A DNA stretch of 64,000 bases from Ignavibacteriota bacterium (GCA_016212665.1 JACREZ010000003.1:1-64000); one strand, 5' to 3'. Shown: positions 5,934 to 18,451, counted from the stretch's first letter. Translations and numbers: made by a program. The notes: a model not told the origin generated them from the letters alone.

Positions 5934-6752
5934 TTAAAATAATGGAATGATGGATTTCAGCAAAAGCGTAAATTTCTTCTTTGCCAAGTTCGCGGTTTCT
6001 GTCACTTCTGCGTGGGAGAGTTTCAAGTCTTTGATTCCGGTTGCGTAGTTCGTGATGCAGGAGATTCCGGCTATCTTCATCCCAAGCGCGTGAGCGAGAC
6101 TGACTTCGTTCACGGTTGACATTCCCACAGCATCAGCGCCGATTCTCCGAATCATTTCAATTTCTGCGGCGGTTTCGTAGGAGGGACCTTTCACGCCGCA
6201 ATAAACTCCCCGTTGCAACGGAAGAGAATGTTGAAGAGCAGTCTTGTAAATTATTTCCTGCAATAAAACATCATACAAAAAAGAAGAACGGATTTGCTTC
6301 GAGGGAGTCTTTCCTCGTAACGGACTTTCAAACGTCAGGTTGATTTGGTCGGTAATCAACATCAAATCACCAGGGTTGAATTGTTTGTTCACGCCTCCAG
6401 CCGCATTGGTGACGATGAGCGTTTTCACTCCAAGCGCACGTGCAACCTGAATGGGGAAGAGGATTGTGTTGAGTGTTCCCGTCTCATAGAAATGAACTCT
6501 GCCTTGAAACGCAAGAAGTTCTGTTTTCCCGATTCTGCCAAATACTAACTTGCCTTTATGTCCTTCGACGGTGGAAACAGGGTAGTGGGGGATTGAAGAA
6601 GTATCAATTGCGATTTTGTTTGATAACGAATCGGCAAAATCACCTAAGCCGGAACCAAGAACGATTGCGACTTTGGGTTTCGCTTTTGTTCGTGAACGAA
6701 TAAACGAACCTGATTCTTTGAGTTGATTCTTATCCAAGAAGTATTCCCGCAA
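5934..6752 (-). CDS. punA: Purine-nucleoside phosphorylase (class II, trimeric type)
   Basis: The enzyme phosphorolyses purine (deoxy)ribonucleosides to free base and (deoxy)ribose-1-phosphate. The 272 residues match the usual 265-290 of the trimeric NP-II family. Visible signatures are the phosphate-binding LGSGLGDFAD near residue 32, VEGHKGKLVFG, QGRVHFYE, TNAAGGVN, GPSYETAAEI, and the base-binding MSTVNEV and CITNYATGI. It is the last gene of cdd-tdk-nupC-punA; its start lies 23 bases inside the end of nupC, implying coupled translation. In context it degrades purine nucleosides imported by NupC. Confidence 0.93.
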   Translation of the reverse strand: MREYFLDKNQLKESGSFIRSRTKAKPKVAIVLGSGLGDFADSLSNKIAIDTSSIPHYPVSTVEGHKGKLVFGRIGKTELLAFQGRVHFYETGTLNTILFPIQVARALGVKTLIVTNAAGGVNKQFNPGDLMLITDQINLTFESPLRGKTPSKQIRSSFLYDVLLQEIIYKTALQHSLPLQRGVYCGVKGPSYETAAEIEMIRRIGADAVGMSTVNEVSLAHALGMKIAGISCITNYATGIKDLKLSHAEVTETANLAKKKFTLLLKSIIPLF

Positions 6753-8079
6753 TTGTTGCTGTCAGTAATGTCGCAAGAGAACCGCCGAGAACTGCTTTCA
6801 AACCGAGCGCGGCAATATCTTTTCTTCGCTCAGGCGCCAATGGACTGATACCGCCGATTTGAATTGCAATGGAAGAAAAATTTGCAAATCCACATAATGC
6901 GAACGTTGCCATCAATACGCCTTTCTCGGTTAATGCCCCTTCCTTGACTAAGGCAGCGAGGTCGAGATAGGCGACAAATTCATTCAGCGCCACTTTCGTG
7001 CCGATTAAACTTCCAACGTTGAGCGCATCCTGCCAAGGCACACCGACAGCAAAGGTCAAAAACTGTAAAATATATCCTAACATGAATTGCAACGTGAGCG
7101 GCTTATGATATACTGCCATGAGATACGTGTTCAATCCTGTTACCGCGCCGAATTGTTCGAGCAGGTAATTAATGAGCGTGATGAAAGCGATGAACGCTAT
7201 CAACATTCCACCAACATTGAGTGAAAGTTGAAGTCCATCCGACGCGCCGCCTGCCGCCGCTTCGATAACATTTGATGCTTGTTTCTCAACTTTCAGTTTG
7301 ACTGTTCCTTTTGTCATTGATTCTTCAGTTTCAGGATAAAGAATCTTCGAAATAGCTAATGAAGCAGGAGCCGCCATTACGCTTGCGGCAAGAAGTTGAA
7401 CTGCAAATTTTAATTGAGCCGTTTGCAAATCAAGATGTTGGGCATCCGCGAAGGATTGACCGAGCATCTGAATGTATGCCGCCATCACACCTCCTGCAAT
7501 CGTCGCCATACCGCCCACCATAATCGTCAGGAGTTCGGATTTTGTCATCGTACCGATATATGGTTTAATAAGCAATGGCGCTTCGGTTTGTCCGACAAAA
7601 ATGTTTGCAGTATTCGAAAGCGATTCTGCGCCGCTTGTTCCCATCAACCGAGCCATTACCCACGCCATTCCCTGAACAACTCGTTGGAGGATTCCTAGAT
7701 AATAAAGGACTGACGTTAAAGAAGAGACAAAGATGATTGTCGGAAGGACCTGAAACGCAAAGAAAAATCCAAGGCTACCTGGACCGGAATTGATTGCCAG
7801 ATTTCCAAAGACAAACTTCGCCCCTTCGATGGTGAAGTTAAGAAGGCTGACAATCGCTCCACCAAGCCAATCAATTACTATTTTGGGAAGTCCGAGGGGG
7901 AAGAAGAAATTCTTCAGTGGCTCATGAAGAATAATGAAAATTGCAAACACAAGTTGAATCGCCAATCCCATTCCGACAAGTCGCCAATTGACTTTTTTCT
8001 TATTGTTAGAAAAAAGAAACGCGATGCCGAGGATGACAGCAATACCTATGATGCCTCTGATTACTGATTCGGGATTCAT
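6730..8079 (-). CDS. nupC: Concentrative nucleoside transporter, NupC/CNT family
   Basis: The protein has 449 residues with about ten hydrophobic segments and the CNT core signatures SGAESLSNTANIFVGQTEAP and GVPWQDALNVGSLIGTK plus the C-terminal CGFANFSSIAIQIGG. CNT proteins import nucleosides with H+ or Na+. The usual bacterial length is about 400; the extra residues lie in a loop between helices (ETEESMTKGTVKLKVEKQA), as in many Bacteroidota members. It is between tdk and the PNP gene, so uptake and salvage are encoded together. The 33-base spacer to tdk consists almost wholly of a heptamer array and shows no clear Shine-Dalgarno sequence. Confidence 0.93.
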   Translation of the reverse strand: MNPESVIRGIIGIAVILGIAFLFSNNKKKVNWRLVGMGLAIQLVFAIFIILHEPLKNFFFPLGLPKIVIDWLGGAIVSLLNFTIEGAKFVFGNLAINSGPGSLGFFFAFQVLPTIIFVSSLTSVLYYLGILQRVVQGMAWVMARLMGTSGAESLSNTANIFVGQTEAPLLIKPYIGTMTKSELLTIMVGGMATIAGGVMAAYIQMLGQSFADAQHLDLQTAQLKFAVQLLAASVMAAPASLAISKILYPETEESMTKGTVKLKVEKQASNVIEAAAGGASDGLQLSLNVGGMLIAFIAFITLINYLLEQFGAVTGLNTYLMAVYHKPLTLQFMLGYILQFLTFAVGVPWQDALNVGSLIGTKVALNEFVAYLDLAALVKEGALTEKGVLMATFALCGFANFSSIAIQIGGISPLAPERRKDIAALGLKAVLGGSLATLLTATIAGILLG

Positions 8080-8083
8080 GAGA

Positions 8084-8111
8084 AAGGTTGGAGGTTAGAG
8101 GTTTGGAGATT
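8084..8111. repeat. Heptamer array between tdk and nupC
   Basis: Four 7-mers read AAGGTTG, GAGGTTA, GAGGTTT, GGAGATT. They fill the spacer between the tdk stop and the nupC start. Confidence 0.6.
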
Positions 8112-8112
8112 G

Positions 8113-8694
8113 TTATTCTTTCGGGGGCTCGAAGCATTTCCGGCAACGGGCTTCATACACACCTTTTGCGCCGACGAGGACACGCTTTTGTTGTTTCGTG
8201 ATACGCTGTGTTCGGTCGGCAGGATTTCCGCAGACAACACAGATGGCGAGCGTCTTTGTAATGTACTCAGCAACTGCGAGTAAATGGGGAATTGGTTCGA
8301 ATGGCTTACCGCGATAATCCTGGTCAAGTCCGGCAACGATGACCCGTTTACCCATCGCCGCAAGTTTCTCACAAACATCAACTAAATCAAGTGAAAAGAA
8401 TTGTGCTTCATCTATGCCAATCACTTGCGAGAAGAGTGCCTTTTCAAAAATCTCAGACGGTTTTGTAACGACGATTGAAGGGAGTGATTGCGTGTTATGA
8501 GAGACGATATTACTTTTGCTGTACCGTTTGTCAATTTTCGGTTTGAAGATGATAACGTTTTGCTTAGCAATTTGCGCCCTGCGAAGTCGGCGAATTAATT
8601 CTTCTGTTTTGCCGCTGTACATACAACCGGTAACGACCTCAATCCAGCCGGTGCCGCTTGGTGTGCTGTGTGGAGTTCCAATTTCCATTGTCAA
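8113..8694 (-). CDS. tdk: Thymidine kinase (type II, zinc-binding)
   Basis: It phosphorylates thymidine with ATP in pyrimidine salvage. The 193 residues include the P-loop GCMYSGKT (23-30), the Mg-binding GIDEAQFF (93-100), a lasso-type YRGKPFEPI segment and two Cys pairs (CVVCG and CRKC) that form the structural zinc site of type II thymidine kinases. ATG at 8694 overlaps the cdd stop (ATGA), so it is coupled to cdd. Two internal Met codons near the start allow a start 2 residues later, with no functional difference. Confidence 0.95.
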   Translation of the reverse strand: MTMEIGTPHSTPSGTGWIEVVTGCMYSGKTEELIRRLRRAQIAKQNVIIFKPKIDKRYSKSNIVSHNTQSLPSIVVTKPSEIFEKALFSQVIGIDEAQFFSLDLVDVCEKLAAMGKRVIVAGLDQDYRGKPFEPIPHLLAVAEYITKTLAICVVCGNPADRTQRITKQQKRVLVGAKGVYEARCRKCFEPPKE

Positions 8695-9110
8695 TCTTTC
8701 TGTAACATTTCAGGTTTGAATGCCATCGGCAGAAGTTCAGATGTTTTCTTTGTTTGAACATTGCCTTTTTTATTTGTCATGATAATATCAATGTCGCCGG
8801 CGAGTTCCATAATCACCTGACGACATGCGCCACACGGAGGGATAAATTCATCTGCGTCTGTTGAAAGAGCAATCGCTTTGAATTTTCGTTTCCCATCAGA
8901 GATTGCTTTGAAAAGCACAGTTCGTTCTGCGCAGTTTGTCAATCCGTACGAACTGTTTTCGACATTACAACCAAGAATGATTTCTCCGGTTGATGTCAAC
9001 AACGCCGCGCCAACGCGAAAGCGGGAGTAAGGAGAATAAGAATTCTTCTTCGCTTTCGCTGATGCGTCTATAAGTTTTTTATATGTGGATGATAACCGTT
9101 GCTTTTTCAT
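8691..9110 (-). CDS. cdd: Cytidine deaminase
   Basis: It converts cytidine and deoxycytidine to (deoxy)uridine. It has 139 residues, the usual size of homotetrameric cytidine deaminases. The zinc site is visible as C60-A-E62 (NCAERTVLF) and PCGACRQ with C93 and C96; the leading SPYSRFRVGAAL and NVENSSYG form the substrate pocket. C60 replaces His of the dimeric type, as is normal for the tetrameric class. It is the first gene of the four-gene nucleoside operon, and its product feeds tdk and phosphorolysis. Confidence 0.95.
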   Translation of the reverse strand: MKKQRLSSTYKKLIDASAKAKKNSYSPYSRFRVGAALLTSTGEIILGCNVENSSYGLTNCAERTVLFKAISDGKRKFKAIALSTDADEFIPPCGACRQVIMELAGDIDIIMTNKKGNVQTKKTSELLPMAFKPEMLQKD

Positions 9111-9161: not shown

Positions 9162-10595
9162 TCACCAGTTTTCATGATGAAGAATTCTATGACGCACAAA
9201 GTTAATCATCCGTTGTTCGATTGGAAAACCGTATGAATCATTTTTGATTCGTAAGCCTGCAAGTTTCTGAAATGGTCGGATGAATCCCTTTGAATATCGT
9301 TGCTCGGTCGCGAGTTTTGTATAAAACTTAAACCGTTCGACATAATCTTGCTCAGACTTACTCACCCAGTAACCGGAATAAAGAATGAAATCAATATCAC
9401 TCCACTCGGCAAGCGTCTGCGGAACGTGAAATCCTTTCTTCACAATGTAATTGAATAATTCGGTGCCGGGATAAGGCGTGAAGAAGAAAATACCAAACTC
9501 AAAATTTTGATTTACTTTCTTAATTGATTTGATGGTTTCGAGGGTCTTCAGTGTGTAACGGAATTCTTCCTCAGGAAAACCGACAATGAAATTAAACGTC
9601 GCACCGATATTGTGGCGGCTAAGCTTTTCTGCAGAGATGACTGCTTCTTCTGCAAGCGTATCTTTCTTCATAAAATCAAGCATTTCCTGAGAGCCGGATT
9701 CTGTTCCGATGGTAACACGACGCAGTCCTGCTTGCGCAACTTCACGAAGGAAATCATCTTCGAGCGGAGCCAATTGGTCTGCTCGCGAAGTTACAGCCCA
9801 AGTAAAGTGCATGTTCTTTTGATTGATTCCCTGACTAAACTCCAAGACACGATTTCGATTGGCAAAGAAGTTTTCATCCTGAAACAAGACATCATCAACA
9901 GAATATTTTTGAACAATATCAAACACATCATTCAACATGCGCGAGCCTTTGAGACCTGACCAGCGACGATTATAGACAAACGGGTCAGCACAAAACGCGC
10001 AGCGATACGGGCAGCCTTGCGATGAGTAAAAATCAATCTGCCTGATTCTTTTTAGTTTGAAATATGTTTCGGTTGGAATAAGACTATAATCGTACGTCGG
10101 AAAGTTGTTTATGTCAATAAATTTCCGCTCGGCGTTTTCCATGAATTCACCCTTGTTGAGATACGCTAATCCGAGAATCTTTTCAAACCCGGAGTTGGAT
10201 TCAATCGCTTCAAGCAGTTCAAGAAATGTTATTTCACCCTGACCGAAAATGCAATAGTCGGCGTAACCATCTCGCATACATTGTTCCGGCAAAATAGAAG
10301 GATGCCATCCGCCCCAAACGATTGGAATGTTCGGTGAAACTGATTTTGCAAGTTTGGAAACCTCTACTGCATCTTTTATTGGTGTTCCGGTGATGACAGA
10401 AATTCCGAGACAGAACGCATCGTTCAAAAGTTCTTTTACTTTTTCATGCGCGTGTCGCGTACTCTTTTCAATTCGTGCATCAACGATTTTTACATCGTAC
10501 TTCTCCCGGTCAATTACCGATGCCAATGCAAGGAACTGCAATGGCATTGTGTAGTACGGTGCTTGGGGATTATAAAGAACAATTGTTTTCTTCAT
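9162..10595 (-). CDS. Radical SAM protein with N-terminal B12-binding-like domain
   Basis: From ATG at 10595 the product has 477 residues. Residues 1-140 resemble the cobalamin-binding domain of B12-dependent radical SAM enzymes (VLYNP near the start, WGGWHPSILPEQ, YCIFGQGEITFLELL); the radical SAM core follows with C195-x3-C199-x2-C202 in SSQGCPYRCAFC. An upstream in-frame start at 10709 would add 38 residues encoded by an intergenic repeat, so I reject it. Relatives (BchE/methylthiotransferase-like groups) methylate or rearrange substrates; this substrate is unknown. It is the last gene of a minus-strand run with a SPASM radical SAM protein, a deaminase and a glycosyltransferase. Confidence 0.8.
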   Translation of the reverse strand: MKKTIVLYNPQAPYYTMPLQFLALASVIDREKYDVKIVDARIEKSTRHAHEKVKELLNDAFCLGISVITGTPIKDAVEVSKLAKSVSPNIPIVWGGWHPSILPEQCMRDGYADYCIFGQGEITFLELLEAIESNSGFEKILGLAYLNKGEFMENAERKFIDINNFPTYDYSLIPTETYFKLKRIRQIDFYSSQGCPYRCAFCADPFVYNRRWSGLKGSRMLNDVFDIVQKYSVDDVLFQDENFFANRNRVLEFSQGINQKNMHFTWAVTSRADQLAPLEDDFLREVAQAGLRRVTIGTESGSQEMLDFMKKDTLAEEAVISAEKLSRHNIGATFNFIVGFPEEEFRYTLKTLETIKSIKKVNQNFEFGIFFFTPYPGTELFNYIVKKGFHVPQTLAEWSDIDFILYSGYWVSKSEQDYVERFKFYTKLATEQRYSKGFIRPFQKLAGLRIKNDSYGFPIEQRMINFVRHRILHHENW

Positions 10596-10650
10596 GGATG
10601 AATTTATATGTTGATGTTCTGAGTATGCAAAAATTGAAATGAAAAACCAA

Positions 10651-10715
10651 CTTGAATTCTTCTTTGCGTAGTCTGCGTCTTTGCGGTTAAGATTCAACCA
10701 CAGAGGCACGAAGTG
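10651..10715. repeat. Low-complexity intergenic element between the two radical SAM genes
   Basis: On the minus strand it reads as phrases CACTTCGTGCCTCTGTGG, AACCGCAAAGACGCAGACTA and CGCAAAGAAG: near-periodic CGCAAAG/CACAGAG phrases. I recognise this style from intergenic regions of many environmental genomes. It is in frame with the downstream gene, which produces a false N-terminal extension. Confidence 0.5.
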
Positions 10716-10718
10716 TTA

Positions 10719-11753
10719 TTAAAATCTATCCATGAACGCATTCATAGCGGGAACTTGCAGGGTGCAAACACACTGCTGACATTGTTTGAGTGAATACTCT
10801 TTAACCTTCTTTCTTGTTTGGCAAATGGATTCAGAGTTCACTATCGAACGGATTATTTCTTCTCTAATATTACCAAACTTCGGAAGGAAGTAACAGGGGA
10901 GGATATCACCTGTTGAAGTAATAACAGCCGAAACGTTCGGAGCGTTACAATGATTTCTAGGGAAATCCGCTTCGCCAAGCAACGCGCGAAAATATTGTGC
11001 AATATGATTGAGTTTCTCAGATGATTCACTGATAAATCCGTTTTGAAATTCATTTCGATAATCAACAGAAAGTTGCTTGACTATTTCTGCAAATTCAATA
11101 CATTCTTCGTGATTCAAATTCACTGAACTTTCTGAAACTGTCTGTCCTGTTTCCAATCTGCCATACGCAACCGAACGAACATCAACGGCAAGAAAGGAAA
11201 TCCTATCTATCTTCAACGACCGGGCAAGTTCAATCATCATCGGCATTTGCCGGAAGTTTGATTTTTGTATGACAATACGAAATGAAATTAGTGGACGCTT
11301 ACTTGCAGAAACAACCTTCTCTACTCCTTGAAGAATCGTCTCAAATGAATCAACACCTCGTATTGAAGTTTGAACTTCAGAGGTTGCACCATCGAGTGAG
11401 ACAATTATCTCATGGAAATACGATTGGATTTCTATATACCGTTTTGATAACAGCAATCCGTTGGTGAGAAGTGTTTGCTTTACTTTCTCCCGCGAAAATA
11501 GCTGACAGATTTCTGGAAAGTCCTTCCGCAATAACGGTTCACCGCCTGAGAAAGCAATGTGCCTCAACCCAAAACCGAATAACTCGTCGGCGAGTTTTCG
11601 AATTTCATCAAGTGAAAGTTCATTTGGTAACGGTTTACGGTATGAACACATTTGACATTTGAGATTGCATCCTTCGGTTACATACAGAATGACAATCGGT
11701 AATGTCCAACAACGGTTACCGAGTGTGTTGAGATATGCTTTGTAGTTCAACAA
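10719..11753 (-). CDS. Radical SAM/SPASM domain protein
   Basis: Its 344 residues start with the radical SAM cluster motif C29-x3-C33-x2-C36 (TEGCNLKCQMC), followed by FSGGEPLLRKDF and SLDGATSEVQTSIRG. A C-terminal Cys-rich region (CNAPNVSA, ILPCYF, KQCQQCVC) fits a SPASM/twitch domain holding auxiliary Fe-S clusters. Such proteins modify ribosomal peptides or protein residues, or act in cofactor and sugar metabolism. No precursor peptide was found next to it. It starts 2 bases after the deaminase stop, so both are surely co-transcribed. The role is unknown; context suggests a small biosynthetic operon. Confidence 0.82.
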   Translation of the reverse strand: MLNYKAYLNTLGNRCWTLPIVILYVTEGCNLKCQMCSYRKPLPNELSLDEIRKLADELFGFGLRHIAFSGGEPLLRKDFPEICQLFSREKVKQTLLTNGLLLSKRYIEIQSYFHEIIVSLDGATSEVQTSIRGVDSFETILQGVEKVVSASKRPLISFRIVIQKSNFRQMPMMIELARSLKIDRISFLAVDVRSVAYGRLETGQTVSESSVNLNHEECIEFAEIVKQLSVDYRNEFQNGFISESSEKLNHIAQYFRALLGEADFPRNHCNAPNVSAVITSTGDILPCYFLPKFGNIREEIIRSIVNSESICQTRKKVKEYSLKQCQQCVCTLQVPAMNAFMDRF

Positions 11754-11755
11754 TG

Positions 11756-12313
11756 TTATTCTTTGTAATCGGGATGTAATCGGAAAAGAGAGTCTTGTAG
11801 TTCATTCGGTGAAACCTGAACTCGTCTCCATTGATAGCGATACGAGCGATAATCTTCTTTCAACCAATGAAGAATGGATTTTTCTTTTAAGAATTGAACG
11901 TGCTTGATGTTGTACTCTAAGATGGCTCCTTGACACATCAAACATGGTTCGTACGTGGAAATAAGGAACAAAGAATCTTTCTCAAGTAAAGCGAACTCTG
12001 TTCTTGAAAATGTATGTAGTGCATCTGAAAGAGCATTGATTTCTGCATGACCGCCGACATTTATGTCACGAAGAACTGTGTTGTAACCTCGGCCGATAAT
12101 CTTACCTTTGTAAAGAATAAGCGCGGCAATTGGCGCATCTTTGTGTTGAAGAGCAGTGGTTGCAAGCGCTCTCAGTTCGTTCAGCAATGAATCGGATAAG
12201 ATAACATCATCACGAAAGAGTGAAGCGGATTTGTATGTTGCAACTTGAAATCCAAACAACACTGAAAGAACGATAAGCGTTATGATAACGTATGAGCGAA
12301 AAGAATTTTTCAT
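11756..12313 (-). CDS. Membrane-anchored cytidine/deoxycytidylate-type deaminase
   Basis: An N-terminal hydrophobic segment (residues 7-27) is followed by a zinc deaminase domain: GGHAEINAL (H89, E91) and YEPCLMCQGAI (C124, C127). The domain resembles the nucleoside/guanine/tRNA-adenosine deaminase branch. The single N-terminal helix or uncleaved signal is unusual, because such deaminases are normally cytosolic; the catalytic domain would face the periplasm. The ATG overlaps the glycosyltransferase stop (ATGA). The substrate cannot be told; a base-containing metabolite made or modified by the neighbouring enzymes is one option. Confidence 0.75.
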   Translation of the reverse strand: MKNSFRSYVIITLIVLSVLFGFQVATYKSASLFRDDVILSDSLLNELRALATTALQHKDAPIAALILYKGKIIGRGYNTVLRDINVGGHAEINALSDALHTFSRTEFALLEKDSLFLISTYEPCLMCQGAILEYNIKHVQFLKEKSILHWLKEDYRSYRYQWRRVQVSPNELQDSLFRLHPDYKE

Positions 12314-14565
12314 TTCTGTTCGTGTTCAATATACAAGAATTTGTCGTACAACGCTTTCACTTGGTTGACACTCCAGCGTATATCATGTTCGGTTGCCCAA
12401 TCGTGAGCGGAGTTTCTTAGTTTCTCGATTCGTCCTTTGTCATTAAGAAGTTTGAGTACTTCATTTGCCAACGATTGATAATCACCTACATTCACAGCTA
12501 CAGCTTTTTCAGGTGAAAAGTCAGAAAGCAAGCCGACGTTAGTTCCACATACGACGACGTTGCACGCGGCGGCTTCAACGATAATCATCCCTTGCGCTTC
12601 ATGGCGAGAAGTATGGAGGAGGACATCAGCCCATCGGTAATAGTCAATCATTTTTTCATATTCTACAACACCGAAGTATGTAACTTTCTCATCCAATCTT
12701 AATTGATGAATCATTTGTTGAACTGCACCGTTCAGGTAATCAGCGCCTACTAATTTAAGTTCACAATCTACTTTCCCTGAAATAAGTTTGAACGCTCGCA
12801 ACAATGTTTCATGGTCTTTTACTTTGTTGAGTGTACCAACGTGGAGAAAATGAAATGGAGGTACAAGCTCTCGTTTTTCATGAACGGCGAACTGTTCTGT
12901 ATCAACACCAAGCGGAATGATGTGTACTTCTTTTGGATCCATTCTGAGTTGATTTATTTGCTGATGTTGATAGTTCGTTAGAAGGACAAGAGCGTCAGCA
13001 TTCTTTGTCAACCAAAGCATCACTGAACGCAAAAAAAGAGAGCGCATGTTCCCATAAGAAATCTCAAGTAGATTTGCAGTTTCTCCACCCAGGAAACTTA
13101 CGATGCTTGGAACTCCGAATAATTTTCCGATGATGACAGCCACAAGTCCGGTCGGAGTTCCCCACAGTCCATGAATCAAATCAAACTGCTCGTGTTGTTT
13201 GATGAAAGCTTTGATTAACAAATATAATTTCTTGATGAAAGAATCACTCGGTTGAGCATTGAGAAAAACAATGTCAGCGTTTCCGCATTTGCTGATGTTG
13301 TTTTCAGAAACTCTAATCAAGGAAAAGATTGTCATGTCGTAATGCTCTGACAAGCCGCTGAGGAGTTGAACCAAAGCGGGGACTTGCAACCCGGATTGAG
13401 GAGAATCAATTCCGCCGGGGACAAAGACTGCAACTTTCTTTTTCACTGAATTTCGTTTTTCATACGTGGCTTGATATGCATTCAACGCCTGTTTGCCAAG
13501 CGCGAGATAACTTAATACTCTATCGAAAAAGTCGAGAACATCTTCTCTTGTTCGTTTTTTCTTTGACGCTTCTACAATTGCCTGAGCACAGGATTCAACA
13601 ACTCCAACACTCCATAACTTCCCGATTTCTCCGTTGTTGGTGATTTTTCTGAACGAGGGAATATCAGTTACAATTGGAACGACTCCACAAGCGAGTGATT
13701 CCAACAATGCAAAGCCGCTTCCTTCATGATGGCTTCCAAGGAGAAAATAATCAGCCGCGCTGTAATATTGTTCAAGAAGTTCATGCGGCTGTTTACCAAG
13801 TAGATGAATTCGTTCAGTCAGTCCGAGTGCTGCAATAATCTGTCGAACTTCATTCAACAAATTTCCCTCATGAAAAATCATATACAAATGGGCATCACGG
13901 AGATGAAGTAATGCCTTATGAAATCCTTTGATGACCGTGAGCGGATCTTTGTTTGCATCCAATCTCCCAACCCAAAGAAATATTTCTTCACCTCTCAACC
14001 CTAACTGAGTTCGTGATAGTTGTTTTCCTTGTGGGTGGAACGATGATGAACTTTCAATCACTTCATGAACTTCTTTATGCTTGCTAATGATTTTCTTCTT
14101 TTTCCATGAGTGGGAAATTTCAAGAGAAGTGAAGAGGAAGGAGTCAACGACATCGAATCCGGTTTGATAGAACGGACGAGAATACCATTGCGGCATTCCT
14201 CCGCCGTGATGTTGCCAAACGATTGCAGTTTCTTTCGACAATCTCGGTCTGAGATGAATTAGCGGATAAGCCCAGCCGTTATGGTGAACTACATCGGGCT
14301 TTAGTTGAACAACAACATCGTGTATATTTTGAAATGAATCGAGAGGAGTAGTAAGGTTTCCTAAGCCATCAGAAACAAAATAATAATGAATTCCCTCGTG
14401 AATGAGATGAGAATTTTTATGGAAACGTTGAACGACCGAAACGCTGTTTGCTCCGGCTTTGAGAACGGCTTTGCACCATTCAGTAGTTGAGTTGTAGCGA
14501 GTGAGTAAACTCGTTTCATTCTCTACATCCTTATCATAGAAGTATGATAAGAATACAATATTCAT
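12310..14565 (-). CDS. Tandem (two-domain) GT4-type glycosyltransferase
   Basis: The 751 residues contain two GT-B glycosyltransferases in one chain. The first (about 1-370) has LWVGRLDANKDPLTVIKGFH and HEGSGFALLESLACG; the second (about 377-751) has VAVFVPGGID, LHVGTLNKVKDHETLLRAF and SRHEAQGMIIVEAAACN. The EA(A/L)xxG region that binds the sugar nucleotide is present in both. Each half is the usual length of a GT4 enzyme, so this is a fusion. Such enzymes build surface polysaccharides or glycosylate small molecules. It is the first gene of the operon with the deaminase and the two radical SAM proteins. Confidence 0.85.
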   Translation of the reverse strand: MNIVFLSYFYDKDVENETSLLTRYNSTTEWCKAVLKAGANSVSVVQRFHKNSHLIHEGIHYYFVSDGLGNLTTPLDSFQNIHDVVVQLKPDVVHHNGWAYPLIHLRPRLSKETAIVWQHHGGGMPQWYSRPFYQTGFDVVDSFLFTSLEISHSWKKKKIISKHKEVHEVIESSSSFHPQGKQLSRTQLGLRGEEIFLWVGRLDANKDPLTVIKGFHKALLHLRDAHLYMIFHEGNLLNEVRQIIAALGLTERIHLLGKQPHELLEQYYSAADYFLLGSHHEGSGFALLESLACGVVPIVTDIPSFRKITNNGEIGKLWSVGVVESCAQAIVEASKKKRTREDVLDFFDRVLSYLALGKQALNAYQATYEKRNSVKKKVAVFVPGGIDSPQSGLQVPALVQLLSGLSEHYDMTIFSLIRVSENNISKCGNADIVFLNAQPSDSFIKKLYLLIKAFIKQHEQFDLIHGLWGTPTGLVAVIIGKLFGVPSIVSFLGGETANLLEISYGNMRSLFLRSVMLWLTKNADALVLLTNYQHQQINQLRMDPKEVHIIPLGVDTEQFAVHEKRELVPPFHFLHVGTLNKVKDHETLLRAFKLISGKVDCELKLVGADYLNGAVQQMIHQLRLDEKVTYFGVVEYEKMIDYYRWADVLLHTSRHEAQGMIIVEAAACNVVVCGTNVGLLSDFSPEKAVAVNVGDYQSLANEVLKLLNDKGRIEKLRNSAHDWATEHDIRWSVNQVKALYDKFLYIEHEQK

Positions 14566-14595: not shown

Positions 14596-14805
14596 TTAAG
14601 CGAAAACCAAACGACCCTTTGGTTCCGGAATCGGCCTTCCTAATTCTTTGGCAGTTTCAATCCACTCATGGATAATTACTTCAACATTTTCTAAAGCTTC
14701 TTGGTAGGTTGCACCATCAGATGCGCAACCTGGTAATTCAGGAACCTCAGCGATAAAGGCGTTATCGCACTGACTCCAATAAATAATCACTTCATACTTG
14801 TTCAT
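14596..14805 (-). CDS. HicB-like antitoxin, solitary
   Basis: Its 69 residues form a typical HicB-like fold: KYEVIIYWSQCDNAFIAEVP, ELPGCASDGATYQEALENV, then a helix HEWIETAKELG and a GRPIPEP tail. HicB proteins neutralise HicA mRNA interferases. No HicA is recognisable beside it. The 14806-14940 region carries only a short frame without ATG whose stop overlaps this start (ATGA). It could be a stand-alone HicB relative, which is common. It sits 30 bases before the glycosyltransferase operon on the same strand. Confidence 0.8.
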   Translation of the reverse strand: MNKYEVIIYWSQCDNAFIAEVPELPGCASDGATYQEALENVEVIIHEWIETAKELGRPIPEPKGRLVFA

Positions 14806-15080
14806 AATGTCATACCCAATTTATACTTTACAATTACAGTTCTAACTTGTTTAACCTGATACGGCTTGGCATGAAAGCCTTTAGGTTGCAAGTTTAATAT
14901 TTCTTCAATACCAAGTTTTTGTGAAAAAATGATGACTACCCTTTGTTCTTAGAGTGAAACCAAGTACTTGGAGTAAGTGGCAAAGCTCTGAGAATGACAC
15001 GTTACTGTCCGAGTGTCCACGAAGTACCTGTTCGAGGACTTTCTCATATTTCGACATTGGGCGCACTCATCAAGAATATT

Positions 15081-15197
15081 TTACTTACCCCCATCCTTCT
15101 CCTGAGGAATATTTAACACCTTCACAAAAAATTTAATTGTGTAATAGGCGATGATTGTCCACGCGCCAATCATGGTAACAAGTGCAGATGCTGACAT
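15081..15197 (-). CDS. 38-residue MetS-like small subunit of the NSS transporter
   Basis: This short gene lies 12 bases after the NSS transporter stop, on the same strand, preceded by AGGAGAAAACATT, a good ribosome binding site (AGGAG). The product starts MSASALVTMIGAWTIIAYY, has one membrane helix and ends with a charged tail (PQEKDGGK). This size, topology and position match the MetS family, the small subunit needed by some methionine/alanine NSS importers. A homologue occurs at 20203-20334. Confidence 0.75.
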   Translation of the reverse strand: MSASALVTMIGAWTIIAYYTIKFFVKVLNIPQEKDGGK

Positions 15198-15209: not shown

Positions 15210-16853
15210 TTATGAATGTTTCTCTCGTTTTTGCCATGCAACTTTGATAGCCCATGCAATTCCGATAAACGTAACCATGAGCAGAATTCTCGTTGCATCT
15301 ATGATGAATGTGTTTGTCGGAGAGCCATCAACAAACCAACGGGTGTCTTCAATTCCAATGTGGAGTATTTTTCCGATGATACTTCCACCATCGAATGCCC
15401 AGCCTTGACCGCTGAATAATTTACTGAACGCGCCTGACCAGTCACCACCGGCAGGACTAATCAATGAACCAAGAAATACAACAAGTAAAAATGAAGGTGT
15501 AATGTATTTGATGACAAATTTAAAGAAGTTCGGGATTTTAATGTCTGCACCACGATTGATTTCCTCCCAACCCTTGTCAATGCCGAAAATCCATGCAAAG
15601 GCGATTGATTCAAGCAGGGCAAAGACGACGAGCGCAAACGTTCCCGACCAATCATCGAACTCACCAAATGCACCTGCACCGAAGAAGATGATGCACCAGA
15701 GAGCAAGGATAAACGTAACGATGCCAAAATAGATTGCAGATTTCTCTCGTTTCATTTTGAATTCATCTTGCAAGAATGCCATAACAGGTTGTCCCATTGC
15801 AAGTGAACTTGTAATTCCTGCAAAGAAGAGAAGTCCGAACCATGCGAGACCGGCAAGGGCGGCAAAGATTGGTCCCCAGTTTTGGAACAACACAGGCATT
15901 GTTCTGAAGCCCATCATCAACCCGACATTACCGGGAGTTTGAATCCATTCCAATCCGAAATATGCGACGGAAATCGGGATGACAATTGAACCGCCGAGAA
16001 GAACTTCGACGAACTCATTCATCCATCCGGCAGAAGCGGCGTTCAAAGCGATGTCATCTCTTTCTCTCAAGTACGCGGCATAACAATGTATCGAACCCAT
16101 ACCGACAGAGAGGGTGAAGAAAATTTGTCCTGCGGCGGCAAGCCACACTTTCGGATTCGAGAGCGAATCGAATTGTGGTTCCCAGAGAAAGTTCAAACCG
16201 ACGGTTGCATCGTTCACTGCGTTTTGGTCACCGGCATCAAGCGTGAGCGCACGAATCGCGAGAAAAATTCCAAATAAAATAAGTATCGGCATTCCGATCT
16301 TGCTCGCAATCTCAACTCCTTTTGCCAAACCGCGGGAAAGTATCCAAAGATTGAGTCCTAAGGTAATAACAAAGAAGAAGAGCGCTTCGGGAGGAAAGTT
16401 AAACAATCCGCCATTCGTTGTCCCGACATACTCGTTAAAAAATCCCGCTATTTGCTCAGGAGTTTTTCCTGAGAAACTACCGACGACCGAGTGATAGGCG
16501 TAGGAAAGTGTCCACGATTCAAGATAACAATAATACGCGGCTACGGTAAGATTAGTAAAGATGCCGAACACGCCGACGTATTTCCACCAACTTGATTTTC
16601 CAAGAACTGCAATCATTCCCGGAGTGGAGTGGTGTCCATACTTTCCGCCATGCCGACCAATCGCCCATTCAATCCAGAGGAGGGGTATTCCCATTAACAA
16701 AAATGAAACGAGGTACGGAATAATAAACGCGCCGCCGCCGTTAGCAACAGCCTGTGCAGGGAATCTCAAAAAGTTTCCAAGCCCGACTGCATTGCCTGCC
16801 ATCGCAAGCACCAGCCCGACTCGTGAACCCCACCGTTCTTTATGTGTTGACAT
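15210..16853 (-). CDS. Sodium:neurotransmitter symporter (NSS) family transporter
   Basis: The 547-residue protein has about 12 membrane segments. The first contains the NSS Na+-site signature GLVLAMAGNAVGLGNFLRFP, followed by GGGAFIIPYL and the helix VAAYYCYLESWTLSYAYH. Members import amino acids or related amines with Na+. The following MetS-like gene suggests the bacterial amino acid importer branch. The substrate cannot be fixed. The GNAT/nitrilase gene upstream is on the same strand, 62 bases away. Confidence 0.9.
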   Translation of the reverse strand: MSTHKERWGSRVGLVLAMAGNAVGLGNFLRFPAQAVANGGGAFIIPYLVSFLLMGIPLLWIEWAIGRHGGKYGHHSTPGMIAVLGKSSWWKYVGVFGIFTNLTVAAYYCYLESWTLSYAYHSVVGSFSGKTPEQIAGFFNEYVGTTNGGLFNFPPEALFFFVITLGLNLWILSRGLAKGVEIASKIGMPILILFGIFLAIRALTLDAGDQNAVNDATVGLNFLWEPQFDSLSNPKVWLAAAGQIFFTLSVGMGSIHCYAAYLRERDDIALNAASAGWMNEFVEVLLGGSIVIPISVAYFGLEWIQTPGNVGLMMGFRTMPVLFQNWGPIFAALAGLAWFGLLFFAGITSSLAMGQPVMAFLQDEFKMKREKSAIYFGIVTFILALWCIIFFGAGAFGEFDDWSGTFALVVFALLESIAFAWIFGIDKGWEEINRGADIKIPNFFKFVIKYITPSFLLVVFLGSLISPAGGDWSGAFSKLFSGQGWAFDGGSIIGKILHIGIEDTRWFVDGSPTNTFIIDATRILLMVTFIGIAWAIKVAWQKREKHS

Positions 16854-16915: not shown

Positions 16916-18451
16916 TCAAGAATTATTTTCGTTTAACCTCACTTCATACAAATCTTTTCTTCGGTCTAACCAATTTAAAACACTGCCGGTCTGCCGATGC
17001 CGTTTGAGTAATTCGAGGTCAACATCATCAATGATGACAGTTTCGATGTTCGGCGTACATTCCGATGCAATCGCATCCCGAGTGAAAGGAATGTCTGATG
17101 GAGTATAAATTCCTGATTGAGCGTACTGAATATCAAAATTGTCAATCGAGGGTAAATTTCCTACAGTTCCCGCCATTGCAACATACACATGGTTTTCTAC
17201 ACAACGTGCTTGTGCGCAGTAACGAACCCTGAGATAAGCGTAGCGCTCGTCCGTACAAAATGGGACAAAAATTATTTGAGCCCCTTTTTCAACTGCGATT
17301 CTGCTGATTTCCGGAAACTCAATGTCATAGCAGATTTGGATAGAAATTTTTCCTCTATCAGTTTCGAACACCTCTATTTTGTTCCCAGGTTGCACGCCCC
17401 ACCATTGTCGTTCGTTCGGAGTGATGTGTAATTTATACTGCTTTCCAATTCCACCGTTCCTTTTGAATAGATATGAAACGTTGTAAAGTTTTTCTTCCTC
17501 AAAAGTGAAGTGTGAACCTCCGATAATATTTATATCATATTTAATTGCAAGATTTGAAAAGAGGTCAAGGTACTCCGGTGTAAATTCTGAAAGTTTTCTC
17601 ACTGCAAGTCCCGGACGCATTGGCTCAATACAAGAAAGGAGTTGCATGGTAAAGATTTCAGGGAAGAGAATAAAATCGGATTTGTAATCTGAGGCAACAT
17701 CAACGAAATATTCACACTGACGGGCAAATTCCCTGAAGCTTTTTATTTCTCTCATTTGATATTGAACGGCACATATACGCACTGACTTTGACCGAATAAA
17801 CTTTTGATGCGGGTCAGGTTCATAATCGAGGTTGGGCCACTCAAGTAATGTCGCGTAGCCCATAGATTCCTTATCAGATTCCATATAAGCATTTATAAGG
17901 CGCTTCAAAACAAATCCGTTTGAGATTTGGGTGGTTAGAACAGGGTCAACCAGATCTTTTGAAATAACCTTATCAACATATTCACGTGCAGTCATTTTGT
18001 CTGCATGTTTTGAATATCCGGGAATTCTGCCACCAAGAACAATACGCATAAGATTCCGTTCACTTGCAAGTTTTTTCCTTGTATCATATAAACGACGGGC
18101 AAGTTTCATTCCTCGGTATTCAGGGTCAACCATGATTTCGATTCCGTACAGCGTGTCTCCTTCGGGATTGTGGTTACGAATAAATCCTTGGTCGGAGATT
18201 TCTCGCCAACTATGCCATTCATCGTACATGTTAAAATCTAAAATGAGACTGCTCGACGAGGCAACGATTTTTCCTTCATACTCGACACATATTTGACCTT
18301 GAGGAAAAATCTCCAACTGACTTTGTAGTTGTTCTATCGTCCAAGGTTTCATAGCAGGGAAGCATTTCAATTGTAAACTGACAACTTGTTGGTAATCAGA
18401 AACGCGTAAAAGCCGCACAGATATTTTTTTGTCTAACGAGGTTATTTCCAC
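16916..18451 (-). CDS. Bifunctional GNAT acetyltransferase / carbon-nitrogen hydrolase
   Basis: In 511 residues, a GNAT domain (about 10-170, with EIMVDPEYRGMKLARRLYD as acetyl-CoA loop) is fused to a nitrilase-superfamily domain (about 225-490). The Glu-Lys-Cys triad is visible in LFPEIFTMQL, KLHITPNERQWWGV and ISIQICYDIEFPEI. This fusion is a recognised bacterial architecture; its substrate is undefined, probably an amide. It begins 12 bases after nhaA in the transcription direction. Confidence 0.88.
   Translation of the reverse strand: MEITSLDKKISVRLLRVSDYQQVVSLQLKCFPAMKPWTIEQLQSQLEIFPQGQICVEYEGKIVASSSSLILDFNMYDEWHSWREISDQGFIRNHNPEGDTLYGIEIMVDPEYRGMKLARRLYDTRKKLASERNLMRIVLGGRIPGYSKHADKMTAREYVDKVISKDLVDPVLTTQISNGFVLKRLINAYMESDKESMGYATLLEWPNLDYEPDPHQKFIRSKSVRICAVQYQMREIKSFREFARQCEYFVDVASDYKSDFILFPEIFTMQLLSCIEPMRPGLAVRKLSEFTPEYLDLFSNLAIKYDINIIGGSHFTFEEEKLYNVSYLFKRNGGIGKQYKLHITPNERQWWGVQPGNKIEVFETDRGKISIQICYDIEFPEISRIAVEKGAQIIFVPFCTDERYAYLRVRYCAQARCVENHVYVAMAGTVGNLPSIDNFDIQYAQSGIYTPSDIPFTRDAIASECTPNIETVIIDDVDLELLKRHRQTGSVLNWLDRRKDLYEVRLNENNS

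Follow-up and report, generated by a model that had tools for sequence, protein, structure and literature searches.

What product would call for a fused pair of GT4 glycosyltransferases, a deaminase and two radical SAM enzymes, and do their genes belong together at all? The question is raised by positions 9162-14565 of a 64,000-nucleotide stretch of DNA (hereafter the window) from an Ignavibacteriota bacterium (GCA_016212665.1 JACREZ010000003.1:1-64000). The original prediction had read this segment as a four-gene biosynthetic operon without an assigned pathway, perhaps for a modified glycoside or nucleoside-sugar.

All four predicted ORFs are present, each on the minus strand, and the Pfam searches returned the families originally named (Table 1), with dCMP_cyt_deam/MafB19-deam for the deaminase. 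The GT4-GT4 gene and the start of the deaminase gene share 4 bp, and 2 bp separate the deaminase from the SPASM gene, as described for the first three genes, whereas the last gap had to be revised. The longer ORF of the B12-binding radical SAM protein (B12-rSAM) spans 9162-10709, and close homologues align only downstream of its extra N-terminal stretch (from about residues 26-40, most of them from 35-40); the start was therefore moved to an ATG near 10595, which is probably the true one judging from these alignments, and the gap after the SPASM gene becomes approximately 123 bp rather than 9. The extra 5' stretch of the longer ORF contains a dispersed repeat of the AACCGCAAAGACGCAGA type, which has seven copies in the genome with at most two mismatches, compared with none for a reversed-pattern control. 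No known RNA elements were found in the window.

Table 1. Features at and around the four-gene set (window coordinates)
Feature	Coordinates	Strand	Details
Island border: pnp, nupC, tdk, cdd	5934..9110	-	Pfam/NCBIfam; judged outside the pathway
B12-binding radical SAM protein, subfamily D	9162..10595	-	477 aa from ATG; Pfam B12-binding + Radical_SAM
Dispersed repeat	about 10660..10720	-	
SPASM-type radical SAM protein	10719..11753	-	344 aa; Pfam Radical_SAM + SPASM
TadA/guanine-deaminase-like CDA-fold protein	11756..12313	-	185 aa; N-terminal hydrophobic segment; HAE...PCxxC motif; PF00383 4.6e-15
GT4-GT4 fusion glycosyltransferase	12310..14565	-	751 aa; Pfam Glycos_transf_1, two stretches
HicAB-like toxin-antitoxin remnant	14596..15066	-	By-eye reading; just upstream of the GT4-GT4 gene; HicA-like frame broken after ~50 aa, resuming in another frame; at the apparent island break
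Single-TM ORF	15081..15197	-	38 aa; Shine-Dalgarno-like site; immediately follows the SNF-type transporter; resembles a small transporter subunit
SNF-type transporter	15210..16853		
GNAT acetyltransferase fused to nitrilase-family domain	16916..18451	-	

The survey of SPASM gene neighbourhoods proposed with the original prediction shows that the four genes are part of a recurring, previously unnamed Bacteroidota island. Orthologues of the SPASM protein with 49-56% identity occur in approximately 16 of 100 relatives, where their genes lie among B12-rSAMs, a class I methyltransferase (MT1), GT9, GT87 and GT4 genes, forming one mosaic cluster centred on a nucleotidyltransferase-like protein (NTase; a weak match to PF01909). 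The core of this island consists of the NTase, a B12-rSAM of subfamily A (B12rSAM-A) and MT1. Around it are optional parts, including further B12-rSAMs (one to four in total), additional methyltransferases, GT9, GT87, GT4, ABC exporters, a metallophosphoesterase, the SPASM protein, and one or other of two deaminase-type proteins that are unrelated to each other, namely the deaminase and an amidohydrolase of the chlorohydrolase/5'-deoxyadenosine-deaminase superfamily. Cluster versions from other Bacteroidota classes keep the same parts. The minimal cluster (loci L059-L067) comprises the NTase, B12rSAM-A, MT1 and the deaminase, with an ABC protein in some cases and a convergent GT9-GT4 pair in several. 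A 234-aa protein encoded between B12rSAM-A and B12rSAM-B (G000:C2; L148:11901-12605) has a signal-like N terminus and no Pfam match, and a flippase call for a polytopic protein (L193:11904-13277) was dropped for want of a Pfam match.

Homologues are thus not scattered in the way that a chance grouping would imply: the SPASM and deaminase families co-occur and co-localise with the same NTase/B12-rSAM core. The NTase, found in 45 of the 100 relatives overall, is present in 16 of 17 SPASM-positive genomes (Fisher 5.5e-6) and in 11 of 12 deaminase-positive genomes (Fisher 5.6e-4), both p-values being inflated by kinship. Among 296 genomes of the phylum, all eight SPASM-positive genomes are found within the 26 that carry the NTase (hypergeometric 1.2e-9, inflated by shared ancestry); in seven of the eight the two genes lie within about 23 kb of each other, and deaminase matches occur approximately 2-2.5 kb from the NTase in G022, G340 and G114. 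In a scan of the genome collection, SPASM matches with at least 49% identity (49-57%) were confined to Ignavibacteria-type MAGs, followed by a sharp fall to 26%, and a closer search of the phylum added members at 34-62%, the 62% match (G352) lying outside the order.

Within the order, the island occupies a fixed site, flanked by a PASTA gene on one side and by cdd-tdk-(nupC-pnp) on the other. In NTase-negative relatives these flanks are separated by 48, 65, 88, 103, 103 and 109 bp, with looser empty sites of 332, 668 and 1105 bp in G052, G024 and G018, respectively; filled sites measure 6.7-13.5 kb. Since the same genes abut PASTA in island-free relatives, cdd-tdk-nupC-pnp are ancestral neighbours of the site rather than pathway genes. 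The window holds the cdd-side half, GT4-GT4, deaminase, SPASM and B12-rSAM followed by cdd, whereas another contig of the same genome (G000:C2, 85.3-92.2 kb) carries PASTA, NTase, B12rSAM-A, the 234-aa gene, B12rSAM-B, MT1 and the metallophosphoesterase. It is strongly suggested that the island has been split in this genome. Both contigs run on past the break into other genes, in the window into the HicAB remnant and then the SNF-type transporter, and this speaks for a real rearrangement, although with the halves on different contigs only a better assembly would make the split certain. The genes predicted to form an operon therefore do belong together, yet they represent only half of an island. 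No GT87, GT9 or exporter genes were seen in either half.

The double glycosyltransferase reflects the same mosaic history. Its N-terminal half shows 48% identity to L165_10 over the entire length of that protein and its C-terminal half 38% to L165_11; these two are separate adjacent genes inside an NTase-B12rSAM-MT1 cluster, so the window protein fuses two GT4s encoded side by side elsewhere. A fused orthologue (747 aa, 56% identity) is found in G001, a genome of the same genus, where the deaminase is divided between two contigs: its N-terminal part adjoins the fused gene on the first, and its C-terminal part lies with the B12-rSAM and SPASM genes on the second. Judging from the gene content of these two short contigs, the four-gene unit is apparently conserved in G001 with the last two genes swapped (deaminase, B12-rSAM, SPASM instead of deaminase, SPASM, B12-rSAM).

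The SPASM protein belongs to the Radical SAM/SPASM superfamily (PF04055 and PF13186 above cut-off), with a CxxxCxxC motif at C29/C33/C36 and with C269, C287, C325, C328 and C330 invariant in an alignment of 13 sequences (A1). Its AlphaFold model (pLDDT 82.9) matches the folds of BlsE (Z 22.6), PqqE (Z 22.3) and SkfB (Z 22.0), and the best sequence matches among solved relatives are BlsE (1.5e-18) and MoaA (4.3e-18). As the sugar/nucleoside enzyme BlsE ties with the peptide enzymes PqqE and SkfB, the structure leaves the substrate class unfixed. A defence role was considered and rejected, since the PADLOC matches were weak (pVip, 71.5 bits) and covered the radical SAM core only; the prokaryotic viperin family NF038283 scored 59.5 bits against a curated score of 180.

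The B12-rSAM has the domain pair of the B12-binding radical SAM (class B) proteins, a predicted B12-binding domain fused to Radical_SAM (PF02310 and PF04055 above cut-off). Among the four subfamilies in the islands, A (beside the NTase, phylum-wide), B, C (widespread) and D, the window protein falls in D, which forms its own starred clade of six genomes from one family. Subfamily D is present in every SPASM-positive genome of that family except an incomplete one, in which the contig ends soon after the SPASM gene. Its scores lie well below those of BchE (TIGR02026; 133.8 bits, curated score 481.35), the ladderane-type lipid family (TIGR04072; 109.8 bits, curated score 360) and the AprD4 equivalog (80.3 bits, cut-off 500). 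Indeed, neither radical SAM protein nor the deaminase reached any curated NCBIfam cut-off.

The deaminase appears by profile comparison to be related to CDA-fold guanine/guanosine deaminases (3.4e-13 and 5.8e-11). It scored 43.7 bits against the TadA equivalog (cut-off 150), and a separate TadA-like match exists elsewhere in the genome (G000:C24). The original prediction called it exported, which is doubtful: the N-terminal hydrophobic segment is present in eight of 11 family members and absent in three, and most of the homologues that have it carry their positive charges after it, a pattern that gives a cytoplasmic catalytic domain. In the window protein the charges precede it, and charge alone does not settle the topology. 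A single-sequence AlphaFold model was discarded (pLDDT 52.7). The cluster-linked deaminases of other relatives show approximately 44% identity, and a more distant homologue in G239 stands beside a dnaG-looking gene (by eye) and lacks the NTase core around it, which shows that the wider family also occurs outside the cluster.

We propose that a split mosaic island makes a membrane-associated glycoconjugate and that the four genes constitute the half of it responsible for tailoring and glycosylation, a reading that we consider as apt to prove right as wrong. In this scheme, the NTase/B12rSAM-A/MT1 core would make or modify an acceptor, which the two GT4 modules (together with GT9/GT87 in relatives) would glycosylate at the membrane. 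Radical reactions of the SPASM protein and the B12-rSAM, whether dehydrogenation, deoxygenation, C-methylation or a ring change, might modify the sugar or lipid, while the membrane-tethered deaminase could convert the amino group of an intermediate that is either purine-like or amino-bearing. An ABC exporter would release the product, yielding a membrane-associated or surface glycoconjugate. We infer the product class, the order of steps and the membrane export, the membrane localisation being drawn from partner genes in other genomes, namely GT87, ABC exporters and a YaeI/LpxG-like phosphoesterase. A modified glycoside or glycoconjugate stays the best guess. An improbable variant would have the core perform an undescribed, Bacteroidota-wide radical SAM chemistry on a membrane-bound purine- or adenosyl-bearing intermediate, with CDA-fold and amidohydrolase-fold deaminases acting interchangeably before glycosylation.

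Several other readings were weighed. The deaminase, or the amidohydrolase in other clusters, might merely salvage 5'-deoxyadenosine or S-adenosylhomocysteine (SAH) released by the radical SAM and methyltransferase reactions. The amidohydrolase does score against 5'-deoxyadenosine deaminase (52.0 bits, cut-off 522) and chlorohydrolases (54.1 bits, cut-off 294), and it never shares a genome with the deaminase (8 and 12 of the 100 relatives, respectively, with zero overlap), an exclusion that is suggestive only, not being statistically significant, and was not retained as a finding. Moreover, no MTA/SAH nucleosidase scored above cut-off in any of the 100 relatives, the same search being positive in most control genomes. 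However, this absence is order-wide, which makes it uninformative as a reason for the deaminase; with a deaminase in only 12 of 100 genomes it can hardly be a general route, and a membrane anchor is odd for an enzyme of a soluble by-product. We therefore regard this reading as unlikely.

A pathway resembling that of HpnH, HpnG and HpnJ is a doubtful candidate. Here the SPASM protein would attach a 5'-deoxyadenosyl moiety to a lipid, after which the deaminase would convert the adenine to hypoxanthine, a phosphorylase would remove the base, and the GT4s and the B12-rSAM would decorate the ribosyl lipid. For B12-rSAM subfamilies A and D, HpnJ ranks first or second among the NCBIfam matches, most members of the deaminase family are membrane-anchored, and its solved relatives include the guanosine deaminases. 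Nevertheless, every HpnJ score falls far under the cut-off (TIGR03471; 117.7 bits for D against a curated 577.6), and the phosphorylase gene adjoining the set, pnp, is an ancestral neighbour outside the island. HpnH is not among the 25 NCBIfam families listed for the SPASM protein, the best of which scored 96.3 bits.

The nucleoside-sugar originally suggested is similarly improbable. It would require a BlsE-like action of the SPASM protein on a nucleoside uronate, with the base as the substrate of the deaminase, and BlsE is indeed the top solved relative both by sequence and by fold, but with MoaA, PqqE and SkfB tied with it. No nucleoside-antibiotic family cut-off was reached. A nucleoside product read from cdd-tdk-nupC-pnp was rejected, and this suggestion finds little support because those salvage genes belong to the border, adjoining PASTA in island-free genomes too.

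That the genes serve a RiPP pathway whose precursor peptide went unrecognised seems very improbable. Peptide maturation is known from SPASM radical SAM proteins and from some B12-rSAMs, and SkfB and PqqE are among the fold matches; however, no convincing precursor ORF, and no small ORF with a Shine-Dalgarno-like site, was found in 9162-14565, as the original reading had it, no RiPP family cut-off was reached, and the clusters of relatives hold GT9, GT87 and GT4 instead. Finally, that four unrelated genes became neighbours by accident is barely credible and largely refuted by the co-occurrence. In its favour, the genus's two genomes differ in the order of the genes, and no direct link between the deaminase family and the SPASM family is seen among the 100 relatives. 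Against it, the same clusters centred on the NTase hold members of all four families time and again, and G001 keeps the four genes together, insofar as its short contigs allow this to be judged.

A radical-tailored glycolipid, if that is the product, would represent new chemistry for bacterial envelopes. Up to five radical SAM enzymes occur together in one island, which spans the phylum from Ignavibacteria to other classes, and no characterised homologue, product or published description of it was found in the open-access papers searched, in line with the original view of the set as unassigned. The conserved site, with its naturally empty and filled genomes, lends itself to a clean metabolomic comparison, and the minimal cluster (NTase, B12rSAM-A, MT1, ABC, deaminase, GT9, GT4) is of a size that suits cloning.

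Among known systems, the hopanoid side-chain pathway HpnH-HpnG-HpnI-HpnJ combines radical SAM enzymes, one of them B12-type, with a glycosyltransferase. The island resembles it in this combination and in the rank of HpnJ among its matches, and differs in the low HpnJ scores, the NTase and MT1 core, the several glycosyltransferases and an island free of a phosphorylase. BlsE, the cytosylglucuronate decarboxylase of blasticidin S, is the solved protein nearest to the SPASM protein, albeit at only about 17-18% identity in the fold alignments, and the island lacks nucleoside-antibiotic partner genes. The closest solved relatives of the B12-rSAM are AprD4, a sugar diol dehydratase, and OxsB, a nucleotide ring-contraction enzyme, both acting on sugars or nucleotides, with partial alignments (201 residues for AprD4). 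With TadA and the guanine/guanosine deaminases, the window deaminase shares the CDA fold, the HAE...PCxxC zinc motif and a profile match over the catalytic half, and it differs from them in an extra C-terminal region and in the membrane anchor typical of its family. The published description of the Bacteroidota O-glycan locus (LFG; PMC12871550) includes metG and wzx but no radical SAM or B12 proteins; like the island, LFG is a phylum-wide, species-variable glycosyltransferase locus, whereas the core and the site of the island are different.
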